Assembly (NCBI GenBank): GCA_016795155.1
Contig: JAEUIE010000019.1
Coordinates: forward strand, 1-64,000
Origin: Planctomycetia bacterium
Lineage (GTDB): Bacteria > Planctomycetota > Planctomycetia > Gemmatales > HRBIN36
Direction: 5' to 3'
DNA length: 64,000 bases
Positions 32,977 to 39,462 of this stretch are shown piece by piece (positions within the stretch are counted from its first letter, which is position 1; each line of letters begins with the position of its first letter). Both the position numbers and the translations under genes were made by a program. Below the pieces are notes generated by a model, which saw only the letters and a program-made list of their open reading frames with translations, had not been told where the DNA came from and ran no database searches.

Positions 32977-33141
32977 CTATTCCGCGGGAACCCAGAAGGG
33001 GCTAACCTTCTTAATCTTGGATATTATTGCCTGCTGATCTGCAGGATTTTTGGTGGTGGCCAGCTTGGTCTTCAGCTTAGCCACGGTTGCACGGCGCTTG
33101 CGTTTACGTTTCAGTTCTGACTTACGTTCAATGTAGGACAT
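32977..33141 (-). CDS. 54-residue Lys/Arg-rich microprotein, DUF6800-like
   Basis: A complete ATG-to-TAG frame encodes 54 residues beginning MSYIERKSELKRKRKRRATV and ending in PFWVPAE. About a third of the residues are Lys or Arg and the first half is predicted helical. This pattern resembles short basic proteins annotated DUF6800 in planctomycetes, which occur widely there and may bind RNA or ribosomes; I recall the family and have not searched it. The gene is convergent with the UVR-motif gene, 7 bases from its stop. Its upstream region is AT-rich. The ribosome site is weak. Confidence 0.65.
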   Translation of the reverse strand: MSYIERKSELKRKRKRRATVAKLKTKLATTKNPADQQAIISKIKKVSPFWVPAE

Positions 33142-33221: not shown

Positions 33222-34361
33222 TCAAGGGCCCTGCATCCACTTCAACTGCTCTTCCATTTCGCTCACCAGTTGAGGATCTCTGGCCCTGATGGATTCCGTG
33301 AATTTCCTGGCATTTTCACTTGGATTACTCAATGCATAACGAATGATCGCACGTTTCGAGATTACCGACTCGAAGTTTTGCTGATAAAGTTTGAAAACTG
33401 CCTGTTCCGTATCCCAGCATTTCATCACCCTCATCTGTTCAATGGCCAAATCCATCATTTCCAACTGCGACAAAAACTGCACCAGGGTATTAGAAACCTT
33501 TTCACGAACGCTTTCTTTTCGAACTGCATGCATGAACTTGATGAATCTCAATAATGCATGTTTTTCAGTGAAGTTACGTTTTTCGTCCTTGGCAATGTTT
33601 TGTACTAATAGCCAGGCGGCAGCAGCATCCTGTCTTTCAATTCCGCAGAGTATGCCATCCAGTGCCGTGGCGTACCGTGCATCGGGCGGATGGTCTATCA
33701 ACCTTTTCAATAAGGCAAAGTCATCCCGGTTGCCACACGCACCCAGGAGATAAGCATAAAGTGCCAGACAATGTTGAGGCGTTTTCGAGTCAACCACCCA
33801 TCGTCGTAATTTGGCGGCATCAAGCTGCCCCGCAATATTGGCAACATCTTCATTCTGAGCGATGGACCATTCCTTGTAAGCATCGTTGGCAATTTCAGGC
33901 TCGTTGTCCTGAAAAAAATCAAATGTGTACTTCAACCTGGCTTGTCTTTCCGATGGAGTCCCCAAGCCGGTGAGTTTGGGCATATTCTGCAGGTACGAAA
34001 CCAATCGATCCGTGGTACATTCGATGCTGCGGTACGGGTCAACTTGTCCCTGGTTGATATCCAGAAAAATGATGTACCGGATGCCTGGCACTGGCGGGAC
34101 ATAACGTGGCAGGGTCAATTTGCCGGCAGCAATCTCCTTGCGATCACCTTGCAGGATTTTCTCAATCTGAAAGTCACTGGTTCCCTTGATGCCATCCGGG
34201 GCCAAGCGGGAATCGGTGATTCGACCGAATATAACGAGTTTGGCGCCTGCCACTTCCTTGGAAAGAGGCATACCCTGATTGCTGCAAAGCACGCACGCAT
34301 GCAGCAGGGCAGGGCAGAGAAGCAGCAGAATGAACACGCGCTGAAACTGGACCAGATACAT
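33222..34361 (-). CDS. Secreted CxxC protein, paralogue B
   Basis: A 379-residue protein with a signal peptide (about 1-22) followed at once by a CVLC motif. It is clearly paralogous to the gene at 34380: both share CxxC after cleavage, a DFxIE-type segment, LPRY-[IV]-PP, F-x-D-[IL]-N, DNEIA-like PEIANDAYKEW, a LGACG turn, DGIL-[AC]-G and RAI-[IL]-RY near the C-terminus. No named family is recognised. The C-terminal two thirds are helical and repeat-like. It is last in a minus-strand gene run with metal-permease genes, 18 bases after its paralogue. AAGGG before the ATG is a good ribosome site. Confidence 0.8.
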   Translation of the reverse strand: MYLVQFQRVFILLLLCPALLHACVLCSNQGMPLSKEVAGAKLVIFGRITDSRLAPDGIKGTSDFQIEKILQGDRKEIAAGKLTLPRYVPPVPGIRYIIFLDINQGQVDPYRSIECTTDRLVSYLQNMPKLTGLGTPSERQARLKYTFDFFQDNEPEIANDAYKEWSIAQNEDVANIAGQLDAAKLRRWVVDSKTPQHCLALYAYLLGACGNRDDFALLKRLIDHPPDARYATALDGILCGIERQDAAAAWLLVQNIAKDEKRNFTEKHALLRFIKFMHAVRKESVREKVSNTLVQFLSQLEMMDLAIEQMRVMKCWDTEQAVFKLYQQNFESVISKRAIIRYALSNPSENARKFTESIRARDPQLVSEMEEQLKWMQGP

Positions 34362-34379
34362 TCCATGTACCCTTGAGCA

Positions 34380-35579
34380 CTACTTGTTCCTGGCTGCGTC
34401 GGCCTGCGAGATCTTTTCGAGATCAAGAATCTCCTGGGCATCCCTGATTTTTTCCGGATGCGTTTTTCTCACATCTTCAACATATGCTTTGGCTGCGGCA
34501 TCATCAGGTACGGAAAGCATGTATCGAAGAACGGCACGTTGAACAATCGGTGCAAGATGTGTTTCTCGTTTGCTTTGCTGAATAATGGTGGAGGTAAATT
34601 TCCATTGTTTCCATTTTCGCAGGTCTTCAATAGCCAGGTCTGCAATGTCCCCCTGGCCGACAAAGGTTTCCATAGTCTTCAATAAATCTTCCTGAGGAAC
34701 ATAACCAATGTGACTTTCCCACAGAAAACGAATGGTTCGCAGAGCCGCATAACGTTTGTTGAAATCCAGATTGGAACTGCTCACCAGTGATTGGGTATAT
34801 TTCCAGCCATTGACCTTATCGACCAGGATGTATCCAGCCAGGATACCATCGATTCCCGATATCAGGCTTTTATCCGGATCGTTCAGCAGCGATAGGAACA
34901 ACTCGCCATCTTCCTGTTTGCCGCAGAGTCCCAGCATGAGTCCCAGCAAGCCATAGCGGTAAATGGCAGTGTTGGGGTCTTTAAGCCAAACCTGCAGACG
35001 CTTACGCATGGCATCATCGCCATGTGCTTTTACCATTTTGACGACATCGGCATAATCTGCTTTGCCAAATTCCTTGAATGCATCAGTTGCGATTTCATTA
35101 TCAACATGATCGAGATAATTGAAATAGAAATAGAGACGCTTGGTGATATTCTTCTCATCCAACTGCAGCGCTTCTTTCAGATACCTGACCAAAATGCCAT
35201 CTTTGGCTGTCAGATAAAGATAGGTGTCAGGCTGATCGTTGTTCAAATCACAAAAGACCAGGAGTTTCTCAGGCCCGGTGGTACTGGGTGGAATATAACG
35301 GGGCAGGGTGATGGTTTTCTTGTTCTTGAGAAATGGATCATTCTTAACCACTTCCTCAATGGTGAAATCGGTGGTACTGAACTCGCGGCCATCAGCGTCA
35401 CGCTTGATTTGCGGATTACTCGGAACCCCAAACAGGACAAACCTCGCCTGCTGAACTTCCTTAACCAGAGTCTGGCCCTGCATCGTGCCACAGAATGGGC
35501 AGTGGGCCTGGACCGATGCCGACAGTGTGAACACTACAACTACCGCCATCACCCGACTGAACCAAGATGATGCAAACAT
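34380..35579 (-). CDS. Secreted CxxC protein, paralogue A
   Basis: A 399-residue exported protein when started at the ATG at 35579, chosen because AGGAAAG lies 6 bases upstream; an upstream in-frame start exists at 35600. The signal peptide ends at ASVQA and the mature protein begins HCPFCG. A beta-rich N-terminal domain (TTDFTIEEVVKNDP, ITLPRYIPP, KLLVFCDLNND) resembles an OB/NTR-like netrin module by spacing, which is inference. The remainder is helical. The CPFC pair could bind metal or form a redox disulfide. It sits directly after the His-rich permease partner, so a metal-related role is suspected but unproven. Confidence 0.8.
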   Translation of the reverse strand: MFASSWFSRVMAVVVVFTLSASVQAHCPFCGTMQGQTLVKEVQQARFVLFGVPSNPQIKRDADGREFSTTDFTIEEVVKNDPFLKNKKTITLPRYIPPSTTGPEKLLVFCDLNNDQPDTYLYLTAKDGILVRYLKEALQLDEKNITKRLYFYFNYLDHVDNEIATDAFKEFGKADYADVVKMVKAHGDDAMRKRLQVWLKDPNTAIYRYGLLGLMLGLCGKQEDGELFLSLLNDPDKSLISGIDGILAGYILVDKVNGWKYTQSLVSSSNLDFNKRYAALRTIRFLWESHIGYVPQEDLLKTMETFVGQGDIADLAIEDLRKWKQWKFTSTIIQQSKRETHLAPIVQRAVLRYMLSVPDDAAAKAYVEDVRKTHPEKIRDAQEILDLEKISQADAARNK

Positions 35580-35624
35580 AGAGTCTTTCCTGAAAAACAA
35601 AACTACCTTAGCTATTGTCGCACA

Positions 35625-36656
35625 TTAATTGAGATAAGGGAAGGGGGGCATAGGCGCCAACTCAACTGAGACTGCCTTCATAAACGCCTGGTACTTGCCA
35701 TCCTGACCGGGCATGAATTTCAAACGCCCCTGAACCTTCACCCATTTCGTTCCCGTTTTCTTGCTACCATCGTTGAGATTCTCGGGCAAAGGCTTGCGGG
35801 TTGCACAAAGAATCATGGCCGGTCGGGAATCCGTCAGGCAACATGCCATTCTTAAACGCACCACCCGGAATACGCTGACAGCACCTGTCTCTTCGAGATC
35901 GAACATGCCTTCGAGTTCCACTTTACGATATGCTGCATATTGCTTCATCAGACCTGGATCCTGAACGACTTTTTCAAGCTCCGCAAGATCTGTAACAAAT
36001 GGCTTGACGCCTTTTGCCTCATCATCCAATTCATCGATAATGCTCTGGACGCCGGAGGCAAAGGTGGTTGAGAAACCCACTTGAGGAAACACTTCATTGG
36101 GCATGCTGAACGCACCCATCATCATCCAGCACATCTGTTCATTGACCATTCCCGACCTCTTGTTCTTGAGGGCTGCATCAATGCGGTAGCGTTCAAAGTT
36201 TTCGATCATGCGCGTGTCAGGTAAGCCCATCATGATCAGAATCAGAGGAATCAAGAGGGGGATATATCGAATAGGGTTCCAGTTATGGTCGTGTCCGTGA
36301 TCGCAGCATTCATGTCCCGCATGCTCGTGTTCATGATCATGATGGTGTTCATGACCATGTTCACCATGATCGTGATCGCAGCAGTCATGGTCTTTTTCAT
36401 CAGGATCATGATCGTGGTGATGCCCATCGCCACCGCGTCGCAGATTGATCAACAGAATCACGAAGAGGACAAGCAGAAAAATACCACCGATAAAGATGGT
36501 GTACTGTATCCAGGTTGTAACCAGGGACAGGATGCTCCTTTCCCCCGGGCTGAACCGGTAGTAATGGGAAAGAAACATCCAGACCATGACCAGTCCGTAG
36601 GCGCCTGTCATGATGAGAGTAAAGAGTCTTTCCATGAACTGACTGTTGCGATGCAT
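35625..36656 (-). CDS. His-rich YcgQ/TIGR03943-like membrane protein
   Basis: A 343-residue protein. Two transmembrane segments (about 12-30 and 50-70) are followed by a striking metal-binding loop at about 76-125, with runs of His, Asp and paired Cys (DHDCCDHDH, HECCDHGHDH). A third membrane segment (about 130-145) precedes a C-terminal extracytoplasmic domain ending in WVKVQGRLKFM...KYQAF. The C-terminal region and its coupling to the permease at 36672 match the YcgQ/TIGR03943 subunit, which in Bacillus partners YcgR and is Zur-regulated. The loop strongly suggests zinc or a similar divalent metal as cargo. Confidence 0.8.
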   Translation of the reverse strand: MHRNSQFMERLFTLIMTGAYGLVMVWMFLSHYYRFSPGERSILSLVTTWIQYTIFIGGIFLLVLFVILLINLRRGGDGHHHDHDPDEKDHDCCDHDHGEHGHEHHHDHEHEHAGHECCDHGHDHNWNPIRYIPLLIPLILIMMGLPDTRMIENFERYRIDAALKNKRSGMVNEQMCWMMMGAFSMPNEVFPQVGFSTTFASGVQSIIDELDDEAKGVKPFVTDLAELEKVVQDPGLMKQYAAYRKVELEGMFDLEETGAVSVFRVVRLRMACCLTDSRPAMILCATRKPLPENLNDGSKKTGTKWVKVQGRLKFMPGQDGKYQAFMKAVSVELAPMPPFPYLN

Positions 36657-36671
36657 GGTTTACCTCTCGAA

Positions 36672-37652
36672 TTAAGCACCTACCGATTTGAAACCCTGTA
36701 CCAGATAGAATGCAGCCATACTGAAGACGAAAACAATCACCCATAAGAGTACTACGATGGTGATGATCAACTTGGGCTTAAACACTCTGGTGTACATTAA
36801 CAATAACTTGAGATCGAACATCGGCCCGAGCACTAGAAAACTCAGTTTACCTGATAGTGGCACTTTGATCATATTGGCAGCAACAAAGGCATCTGCTTCA
36901 CTGCACAAACAGAGAAGCACTGCAATCACCATCATAATTAGTGCTGCACTCCAGGGATTGCCGAAAAGGTACGATACTTTGCTGACAATTTCATAGGTCT
37001 GCAGCGTGGCAGCCAGAATGGCTCCCAAAATCAGGAAACAAGTGATATCGATGAAATCGTGCAGAGCCACCTGTGCGATATTGGCCAGCCTCATGCTCCA
37101 TGGCCTCTTGACCTGAGGCTCATCAGCCAGTTGCAAAGGTGTTATCTTGATCGGCACTTTGATAAGGTCGGACACACCTTTTACTGCCAGACGATTGATC
37201 ACGCATCCTACAATAAAGGCTGTTAAAAAAGCTAAACCACATCGCATGACAACCATTTGTACGCTGGTCAAGCCGTCAATGGTGCTGCGATCACCCGAGA
37301 AGGCAGCCCAGGTTGAAGCAATCACCACAGGGTTCACCACCGGTGCTGCTAGCATATAGGCAACGGCACATCCCAGTGGAAGCCCTTTGCCCAGTAGGCG
37401 CCGCATCACGGGCACAATACCGCATTCGCACATGGGGAAAATAAGCCCCAGCAATGCACTTCCCGCTATTGCCAACGACCGGTTCTTGGGAATCATGCGG
37501 GCAAAAAGTTGTTGTGGTAACAATTCTTCCAGGATGCCGGAGATCAGCGCGCCAATTATCACAAAGGGAAGGGCTTCGTACACAATACTTTGAAACGAAA
37601 CTACAAACTGGTCAATCCCGCTCAAAGCTGCAAACATCGGCTGTATTATCAT
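36672..37652 (-). CDS. YcgR/ArsP-type permease (DUF318)
   Basis: A 326-residue polytopic membrane protein with the two duplicated half-motifs of DUF318/YraQ permeases: GALISGILEELLPQ near 37-50, PMCECGIVPVMRRLLGKGLPLG near 93-114, and a later CSEADAFVAA block with its own Cys and acids. The CECG/CSEAD pair is characteristic. The family includes ArsP organoarsenical efflux and Zur-regulated YcgR. It lies 15 bases upstream of the His-rich partner, so they probably form one complex. The metal is not determined by sequence. Confidence 0.87.
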   Translation of the reverse strand: MIIQPMFAALSGIDQFVVSFQSIVYEALPFVIIGALISGILEELLPQQLFARMIPKNRSLAIAGSALLGLIFPMCECGIVPVMRRLLGKGLPLGCAVAYMLAAPVVNPVVIASTWAAFSGDRSTIDGLTSVQMVVMRCGLAFLTAFIVGCVINRLAVKGVSDLIKVPIKITPLQLADEPQVKRPWSMRLANIAQVALHDFIDITCFLILGAILAATLQTYEIVSKVSYLFGNPWSAALIMMVIAVLLCLCSEADAFVAANMIKVPLSGKLSFLVLGPMFDLKLLLMYTRVFKPKLIITIVVLLWVIVFVFSMAAFYLVQGFKSVGA

Positions 37653-37721
37653 GGCATCCTGAATCCGGCGTGGTTCTCTTCTTTACATGAATGATAGCGA
37701 TACCCAACGGGTAAACTACTC

Positions 37722-38981
37722 TCAGTTATTGCTTACGGAAATCGCTCGCTTTCCTCGAAGCAAGGGGCCAGCAAAGACGGAGGCAAAAAAGCAGATTGTT
37801 CCCAATACAACAATAACGCCTCCCGTTCCGAGCGGAAGGTTCTTTCCACCAATGACAGGCTGCCAGCTCGCACTAATGAAAAAGCCTCCCAGACCAGCCA
37901 CGAGCGAGACAAATAAAGTAATCCAGAAAAACTGTCGTAAATTGCGCGAGATGTTGCCTGCTGTTGCCGCAGGTAAAATCAGTAACGCATTGATTAAAAG
38001 TGCTCCCACGACTTTCAGGCATGCGTTAACCGTCATCGCCAGAAAGATGATAAACAGATAGTTGCTGAGTTCAACCGAAATGCGCCGGGAACGTGCCAGG
38101 CTGGGATTAAAGCTCGCCAGCACCAGCTTGTTGTAACGCAGCAATAAAAAGATAACAGTGATGACGAGTAGAATCAAAAGATAAACAATCTGCTGACTTG
38201 TGGTTGCCATCGGGTCGCCGAAAAGAAAGGTTTCCGGATTCTGTGCTCCACGGCTTCCGCCGCCGATTTTGGCAACTGCTGTCAGCAGAATGGCGCCAAG
38301 GCCCATAGCCCCGGCAAAGAAAACACCAATGATGGTGTCATTAGCCAACACCGTCTTTTGCTTCACGTAGGCAATACCGCAGCCGCTGATGATTCCAAAC
38401 GCCACCATGACCGGAACAATCAGTTCATCGCTGGCCAACAGTCCGGCAATATTCATGAGAATACCAAGGGCCACACCTGCGAAAGCAAAGTGAGCCAGGG
38501 CATCGGAAAAGAATGCCATGCGATTGCTTAACACCAGCGAACTGATCGCACCGCATATCAGACATACCAGGAGAATACTGACCAGCCCCAGCACCATCTG
38601 CTTATTACTGAACAAGGTCCCTTCGGAAAACATTCCCTTCAATTCGGTAAACTGTTCATCGAGCCATTGTGCAGGCATTGAATACCAGGCGTAAAGAACC
38701 TGAATGTATTGAACTGTCTTGTTATCTTCTGCCAGTTTCACTTGAAGCAGCGTGCCTGGCGATTGCAGGGAAATATCTTCAGACCCCTGCCCGTGCAAAC
38801 CCGTTTTACAACTGACCGCAGAGGGTACGGTCACCCAGATGCTCTCACCTGATTGCACCAGTCTGATTCTGATTTCGCCAGTACTGCCATGCTCCTGCAG
38901 AACCGCTGGCTGATCCTGGCCTAATACGACCTGGGGGATCAGCATGCCGATAAATAATGTCAGGATTCGGACGGAGTGCAA
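37722..38981 (-). CDS. Zinc/manganese-type ABC permease with exported N-terminal domain
   Basis: A 419-residue protein. The C-terminal 280 residues are a ZnuB/ABC-3 family permease with about eight membrane segments (FFSDALAHFAFAGVALG, the DALAH motif; LLINALLILPAATA). Ahead of it is a signal-anchor (residues 1-22) and a roughly 100-residue extracytoplasmic domain not normally found in ZnuB. A TTG start at 38981 is favoured because GGAG lies 6 bases upstream and only this gives a full signal; an internal ATG at 38945 would truncate it. No ATPase or binding protein lies next to it in the window. Confidence 0.85.
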   Translation of the reverse strand: MHSVRILTLFIGMLIPQVVLGQDQPAVLQEHGSTGEIRIRLVQSGESIWVTVPSAVSCKTGLHGQGSEDISLQSPGTLLQVKLAEDNKTVQYIQVLYAWYSMPAQWLDEQFTELKGMFSEGTLFSNKQMVLGLVSILLVCLICGAISSLVLSNRMAFFSDALAHFAFAGVALGILMNIAGLLASDELIVPVMVAFGIISGCGIAYVKQKTVLANDTIIGVFFAGAMGLGAILLTAVAKIGGGSRGAQNPETFLFGDPMATTSQQIVYLLILLVITVIFLLLRYNKLVLASFNPSLARSRRISVELSNYLFIIFLAMTVNACLKVVGALLINALLILPAATAGNISRNLRQFFWITLFVSLVAGLGGFFISASWQPVIGGKNLPLGTGGVIVVLGTICFFASVFAGPLLRGKRAISVSNN

Positions 38982-39048
38982 TGATTGCTCCAGAAGGGGT
39001 ATGTTTAATTTACGAGGAACAGGGAGCAGCAGTTCGAATATAGTGCAA

Positions 39049-39462
39049 TCAACCGCCGGGTAGGGCAGGTGCCTGAGGCCAGATCATATTTTCCATACGA
39101 ATCGCCAAAGTGAGATAAGTACACAGACCGGCAAAGAAAAGCGACCAGACCAGTATCCAGATAGATCGAGACTTAAGCTTTCTCGAATTTGCACTTTCGT
39201 CTACTGGCTGGTTACCGGCATCCAGGTTCTGCGTACCTGACAAGGCATGTACCACGCAAGTTTTGTAAAGCGCCTGAAAGATGCCAAGATAGCCAAGAAA
39301 GTATGGAGCAAAGACTGTTGCTCGTAGCCAATCATTTACATCCTGCCAGATAAAAATGAGCGAGAGTGCCAGCCCCAGATAAAAGAATAACAGGCCCATC
39401 AGACGGCGTTTGTGCGTCTCGCGTGGCCCAAGATTGATGCAAGCAGCCTGGGTCTGGACCAT
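39049..39462 (-). CDS. Small membrane protein with CINLGPRE motif
   Basis: A 137-residue protein started at the ATG at 39462. A cytoplasmic N-terminus carries Cys-Ile-Asn-Leu-Gly-Pro-Arg-Glu, followed by hydrophobic segments at about 22-42, 49-68 and 100-122. Small membrane proteins with a C-x-N-x-GPRE start occur in cyanobacteria and planctomycetes, but I know no function. It lies 67 bases upstream of the ABC permease and may be the first gene of the metal operon. A long imperfect inverted repeat occupies its upstream region. Confidence 0.65.
   Translation of the reverse strand: MVQTQAACINLGPRETHKRRLMGLLFFYLGLALSLIFIWQDVNDWLRATVFAPYFLGYLGIFQALYKTCVVHALSGTQNLDAGNQPVDESANSRKLKSRSIWILVWSLFFAGLCTYLTLAIRMENMIWPQAPALPGG

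Follow-up and report, generated by a model that had tools for sequence, protein, structure and literature searches.

The ZnuABC importer and ZigA/YciC are standard Zur targets (PMC6103462), and a further zinc importer from Vibrio, ZrgABCDE, includes an ATPase, a permease and a DUF3299-type protein (ZrgC, ZrgB and ZrgE, respectively) (PMC9817125, PMC9820375). Under copper or zinc stress, growth requires SO_0444, a relative of the ArsP_1 permeases for which an efflux function has been proposed (PMC3219624). Our literature search returned no report on zinc acquisition by Planctomycetes.

We compared these systems to a locus in a 64,000-nucleotide stretch of planctomycete DNA (the window). As in ZnuABC and AztABC, the Gemmatales have an ABC-3 permease, a ZnuA/AztC-like binding protein and a ZnuC/AztA-like ATPase, but in the sampled Gemmatales the permease gene lies apart from the other two and is grouped instead with the ArsP_1 and YcgQ genes, often together with those for the CxxC proteins. 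As in the YcgQ/TIGR03943 systems, the ArsP_1 permease is paired with a DUF1980-type partner, adjacent or fused; unlike them and SO_0444, the window genes score under the equivalog cut-offs, the partner is His-rich and the pair is coupled to an ABC-3 permease. As in the Zur regulon (znuABC, zigA/yciC), some Gemmataceae share one operator-like motif before znuA, zigA and the CxxC gene that we call CPFC, whereas the window operon lacks it. As in Vibrio ZrgABCDE, CxxC loci outside the Gemmatales carry an ATPase (ZrgC), a MacB-like permease (ZrgB) and DUF3299 (ZrgE-like) genes, but the CxxC gene sits between the permease and DUF3299 genes. Our best explanation of the whole, held with moderate confidence, is a zinc-supply locus that combines a split importer, an ArsP_1/YcgQ unit and CxxC zinc-uptake proteins.

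Genes of the window locus

The preliminary description placed six genes head to tail on the minus strand, and all six open reading frames are present, including the ABC-3 and DUF318 permease genes. The features are as follows.

39049 to 39462, minus: small membrane protein, 137 aa, probably accA-linked; no Pfam or NCBIfam match
37722 to 38981, minus: ABC-3 metal permease, AztB/ZnuB-like, with an N-terminal extension (PF00950, 5e-48)
36672 to 37652, minus: DUF318/ArsP_1 permease (PF03773, 2e-51)
35625 to 36656, minus: YcgQ-like membrane partner with a DUF1980 C-terminal domain (TIGR03943, 6e-10; DUF1980_C, 4e-4; both sub-threshold)
36279 to 36425, minus: His/Asp/Cys-rich loop of the YcgQ-like protein (from sequence)
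34380 to 35579, minus: CPFC protein, with signal peptide, N-terminal CxxC, predicted NTR/TIMP-like barrel and HEAT solenoid (ATG at 35579; AlphaFold, Foldseek)
35490 to 35501, minus: CPFC motif codons, predicted mature N-terminus (Cys pair invariant in 90/90 members)
35202 to 35501, minus: predicted beta-barrel of the NTR/TIMP type in the CPFC protein (modelled with five strands; Foldseek probability 1.00)
34386 to 35195, minus: predicted helical solenoid, HEAT-like, in the CPFC protein (AlphaFold model, Foldseek)
33222 to 34361, minus: CVLC protein, a paralogue with the same predicted architecture as CPFC (30% identity; AlphaFold, Foldseek)
34284 to 34295, minus: CVLC motif codons, predicted mature N-terminus (from sequence; invariant Cys pair)

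From the small membrane gene to the CVLC gene, the intergenic gaps are 67, 69, 15, 45 and 18 bases. The gaps within the metal part (69, 15, 45 and 18 bases) make a single transcript possible, and the last two agree with the earlier observation that the CxxC genes closely trail the permease genes. The small membrane gene, which had been counted as part of the operon, probably lies outside the metal module and is linked to accA: in one relative (L032) it directly follows accA, and two genes separate it from the ABC-3 gene. Directly downstream of the CVLC gene is a short basic 54-aa open reading frame (32977 to 33141, minus; MSYIERKSELKRKRKRR...) that appears to encode a small protein conserved in planctomycetes.

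Sequence and predicted fold of the CxxC proteins

CPFC and CVLC are exported paralogues, as had been proposed, with 30% identity over 364 aa (E-value of 4e-46), and in the family the CxxC comes directly after a type-I-like signal peptide. The family is encoded by 91 of 101 relatives and by 71/71 high-quality Gemmatales genomes, mostly as a tandem pair. Scanning genome contigs with a single protein yielded no matches, while an alignment-based search detected the family in 251 of the 298 genomes of the class Planctomycetia; it is absent from f3, f8 and certain further families within the class, and a phylum sample from outside the class gave a single weak match. Both CxxC cysteines are invariant (90/90 members). 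The residue preceding the first Cys is Ala in 80 of 90 members and the site is lipobox-like in only 4 of 90; consequently, the first Cys is predicted, in most members, to form the mature N-terminus. For the window's CPFC protein, a His probably stands before it. Lipoprotein anchoring was rejected on the same lipobox count. Several long members from outside the Gemmatales have a hydrophobic anchor at their C-terminal end.

The preliminary description recognised no family for these proteins, which holds at the level of sequence but not for the predicted fold. Neither protein matches a Pfam or NCBIfam family model, Pfam's NTR/TIMP models do not match the pair or 35 members, a sequence-profile search of the PDB returned chance matches only, and a literature search found no report of the family; Pfam HEAT_2 (PF13646) is detected in 10 of the 35 members. 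The structure prediction suggested at that stage produced confident models for both paralogues (CPFC: pLDDT 93.9, pTM 0.87; CVLC: pLDDT 93.9, pTM 0.88), each running from a signal helix through the CxxC and a five-strand barrel to an all-helical solenoid. In Foldseek searches against the PDB, the barrel matches TIMP-1, agrin NtA and the NTR domains of meteorin and PCOLCE with a probability of 1.00, at modest E-values (about 5e-3 for CPFC and 2e-2 for CVLC) and a TM-score to target of about 0.59. These matches arise independently for the two proteins. Both solenoids match HEAT-repeat proteins; a viral fold library gave nothing credible. The models thus predict that CPFC and CVLC combine an NTR/TIMP-like barrel with a HEAT solenoid.

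The NTR/TIMP fold is known mainly from animal extracellular proteins, and in animal TIMP the N-terminal Cys chelates the catalytic zinc of a protease. The window pair shares with TIMP-1, agrin NtA and the meteorin NTR domain the barrel (here as a prediction), secretion and a Cys motif at the N-terminus left by signal cleavage; it differs in being bacterial and HEAT-fused, with no detectable sequence similarity. CPFC and CVLC could act as metalloprotease inhibitors or zinc-site occupiers, whose free N-terminal Cys chelates the zinc of an envelope protease and so spares zinc or curbs proteolysis during starvation. The barrel predicted in both paralogues and the N-terminal position predicted for the first Cys in most of the 90 members count in favour of this role, but we consider it improbable. 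The motif is CxxC instead of the Cys-x-Cys of TIMP, and the further TIMP disulphide cysteines are not conserved, only two cysteines being invariant (C111 occurs in 36 of 65 Gemmatales members and 0 of 25 outside). Moreover, the probable His ahead of the Cys in the window protein, the lack of any protease partner among what was seen and the many non-inhibitor members of the NTR fold all count against inhibition.

Metal transport genes and their neighbourhoods

An ABC-3 match was found in 71/71 high-quality relatives, and the ABC-3 gene adjoins DUF318 in 84 of 90 genomes. No ATPase or binding-protein gene lies beside the window's ABC-3 gene. Elsewhere in the window genome, ZnuA is encoded at two loci: L119, which is complete with four genes, and L120 (G000 C3:205468), which has ZnuA and an ATPase but no permease; the window ABC-3 together with the L120 genes would supply all three components. 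The same orphan ZnuA and ATPase pair, with no permease nearby, occurs in 18/18 sampled relatives (L186-L203), or 19 genomes including the window genome. Five genomes (G014, G016, G020, G042 and G069) contain just a single ZnuA match and a single ABC-3 match, the latter of the window type, and the simplest reading is that the permease serves the distant ZnuA and ATPase. It is therefore probable that the window ABC-3 is a permease detached from the rest of a split ZnuABC/AztABC importer, a pairing in trans that we infer from gene inventory. The best NCBIfam match of the window permease is AztB, but the components do not reach the curated NCBIfam equivalog scores (AztB 112/280, AztC 124/350, AztA 136/220 and ZnuC 146/306). 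The first ~110 codons of the ABC-3 gene (37722 to 38981, minus) encode an exported-looking N-terminal domain that lies outside the Pfam match and is at least partly common to G003.

The neighbouring permease belongs to ArsP_1 (PF03773 score of 175 bits, gathering score of 32). Against the NCBIfam model CuZnOut_SO0444 it scores 63.9 bits (cut-off of 300), which suggests a distant relative of the SO_0444 copper/zinc efflux type; since SO_0444 is itself a proposed efflux protein, the locus may keep metal import in balance with export. The YcgQ-like assignment of its partner stands for the C-terminal part, where TIGR03943/DUF1980 matches, but at a score (38.9) under the curated cut-off (88.8), while relatives exceed the DUF1980_C cut-off. 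Judging by its composition, the His/Asp/Cys-rich loop likely binds metal. In one relative (L180:5486-7627) the YcgQ-like protein and DUF318 form one 713-aa fused protein with a His-rich N-terminus, supporting a physical pair.

A block of kinase, accA, Gfo/Idh, aminotransferase, ABC-3, DUF318 and YcgQ genes recurs in the relatives. In six loci (L036, L045, L054, L179, L180 and L181), accA and the genes for the Gfo/Idh oxidoreductase and the class-III aminotransferase lie directly upstream of ABC-3; the window locus is without the oxidoreductase and the aminotransferase.

CPFC is found within 12 kb of DUF318 (at 1.6-3.1 kb) in 32 of 86 Gemmatales genomes, from 21 genera and both families of the order, and there it lies beside the ABC-3 permease, the ArsP_1 permease and the YcgQ-like partner. 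In the other 54 of 86 it is located elsewhere, including seven cases on the same contig that are genuinely apart. The proposed neighbourhood of CxxC and permease genes is thus upheld in part, with the count running, numerically, half way towards its refutation. Away from the permeases, an HD-domain gene and a gene for an M17 peptidase often flank the pair. G011 has a third and divergent ZnuA gene (C1:3161850, within L041), which lies about 4-5 kb from a CPFC/CVLC-type pair.

We built a motif (consensus GGTATTACGAAGTTATCCC) solely from 19 upstream regions of the orphan-pair znuA gene and used it to scan Gemmatales loci. Scores of at least 15 were reached by 4 of 54 CPFC upstream regions, compared to 0.27% of random segments. 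Within the CPFC-containing loci, the four sites scoring at least 17 are all shortly upstream of CPFC and come from three genera, with Zavarzinella formosa among the species; in a fifth genome (G055), the same position holds a site with three mismatches, for a total of five Gemmataceae genomes. By comparison, none of 50 CVLC upstream regions reached 15 and none of 148 from seven neighbouring gene classes reached 10.7, while an eighth class (kinase, n = 3) gave one match, scoring 13.4, where the coding region begins. Genome-wide, ten genomes contain 11 sites with at most two mismatches. Six of these precede znuA, three precede CPFC, one precedes zigA (a gene over the NCBIfam equivalog cut-off for the zinc metallochaperone ZigA) and one is unexplained. 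These counts are not independent, as the sequences are related, and only sites with at most two mismatches and a promoter position discriminate; with up to three mismatches, the motif is genome-wide no more frequent than its reversed control. Strong sites precede a minority of CPFC genes, mostly those distant from the permeases, and the window operon has neither a palindrome nor a znuA-type motif (best score of 7.8).

In 10 of the 15 loci that come from outside the Gemmatales and f5, genes for an ATPase and a MacB-like permease adjoin the CxxC gene, usually with two DUF3299-type genes next. ZrgA (PF10986) gave no match over cut-off in the 21 genomes with Zrg-like loci, so the CxxC protein may take ZrgA's place. 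All five loci from f5-family genomes have neither Zrg nor permease neighbours. In the window genome, a search for a ZrgB-type permease gave weak FtsX-region matches and no clear counterpart, and DUF3299 occurs elsewhere in a 441-aa protein with no adjoining metal gene, which argues against a local Zrg link. Consecutive DUF3299-type pairs at L165:7290-8717, L163:7418-8847 and L168:6596-7863 all have a CCFG motif, and in L163 and L165 one of the two genes has an N-terminal DUF4190 membrane part.

Proposed role in zinc supply

The earlier reading of the locus as one for zinc or a similar metal, and its link to the CxxC proteins, gain from the motif common to znuA, zigA and CPFC, the Zrg-like neighbours and the split ZnuABC inventory. 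Counting against the zinc-supply explanation are the motif-free window operon, the small share of CPFC genes with a strong motif, the 54 of 86 copies apart from the permeases, the absence from the CxxC proteins of any His-rich segment or recognisable metal site, the efflux proteins among the ArsP_1 relatives, the five f5 loci with neither Zrg nor permease neighbours and the CbiM genes described below. On balance, we consider the association of the CxxC family with zinc supply well supported and probable, and put the chance that it handles zinc directly, via the N-terminal CxxC, at even or slightly below.

In the proposed mechanism, the ABC-3 protein would be a detached permease whose binding protein and ATPase are encoded elsewhere in the genome, and ArsP_1 would combine with the His-rich YcgQ-like protein into another metal-permease unit. 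Both CPFC and CVLC would be exported and belong to the programme of zinc uptake. Their mature N-termini, each carrying the CxxC, would most likely bind zinc or a partner loaded with it, or hand either on, on the outer side of the inner membrane; the HEAT solenoid would dock the proteins to the transporter or some other protein of the envelope. The computations show the family, its predicted fold, the neighbourhoods, the motif common to CPFC, znuA and zigA in relatives and the set of genes for the split importer; from these we infer zinc over another metal, direct binding of metal by the CxxC, the docking and a control of the window operon by zinc.

Alternatively, the module could serve another metal (cobalt, nickel or manganese) or chiefly efflux, with zinc as a correlate only. 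The gene for CbiM, a cobalt/nickel ECF component, lies directly downstream of YcgQ or CPFC in two genera (L181:11295-11897 and L056:10586-11695), which makes cobalt or nickel possible, and efflux proteins among the ArsP_1 relatives, such as SO_0444 (PMC3219624), argue for export rather than uptake. The motif common to znuA and zigA, together with the Zrg-like neighbours, instead points to zinc uptake, and we give this alternative little credence. Similarly doubtful is a redox role for the CxxC thiols, in which they would hold a cysteine of a transporter or metal protein in the reduced state or act as a sensor of oxidation or metal: the invariant Cys pair and the similarity of CPFC, CPGC and CTFC to thiol-disulphide motifs would suit it, but neither model has a thioredoxin fold and no Dsb or thioredoxin neighbour was noticed among the loci read.

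A bolder version of the zinc-supply reading, which we regard as rather unlikely, is a lineage-specific, bacterial TIMP-like family whose exposed N-terminal CxxC forms a zinc-coordinating tip, replacing the ZrgA-type receptor of Zrg-like ABC importers in many Planctomycetia and serving the split ZnuABC and ArsP/YcgQ in the Gemmatales; the CxxC proteins would then represent a novel kind of zinc-acquisition protein on a mainly animal fold. If the zinc-supply reading is correct, an uncharacterised family present in most Planctomycetia genomes would join zinc uptake, and a split ZnuABC importer would be recognised throughout an order. The NTR/TIMP-like domain would also be placed in a bacterial setting where its metal chemistry is open to testing.
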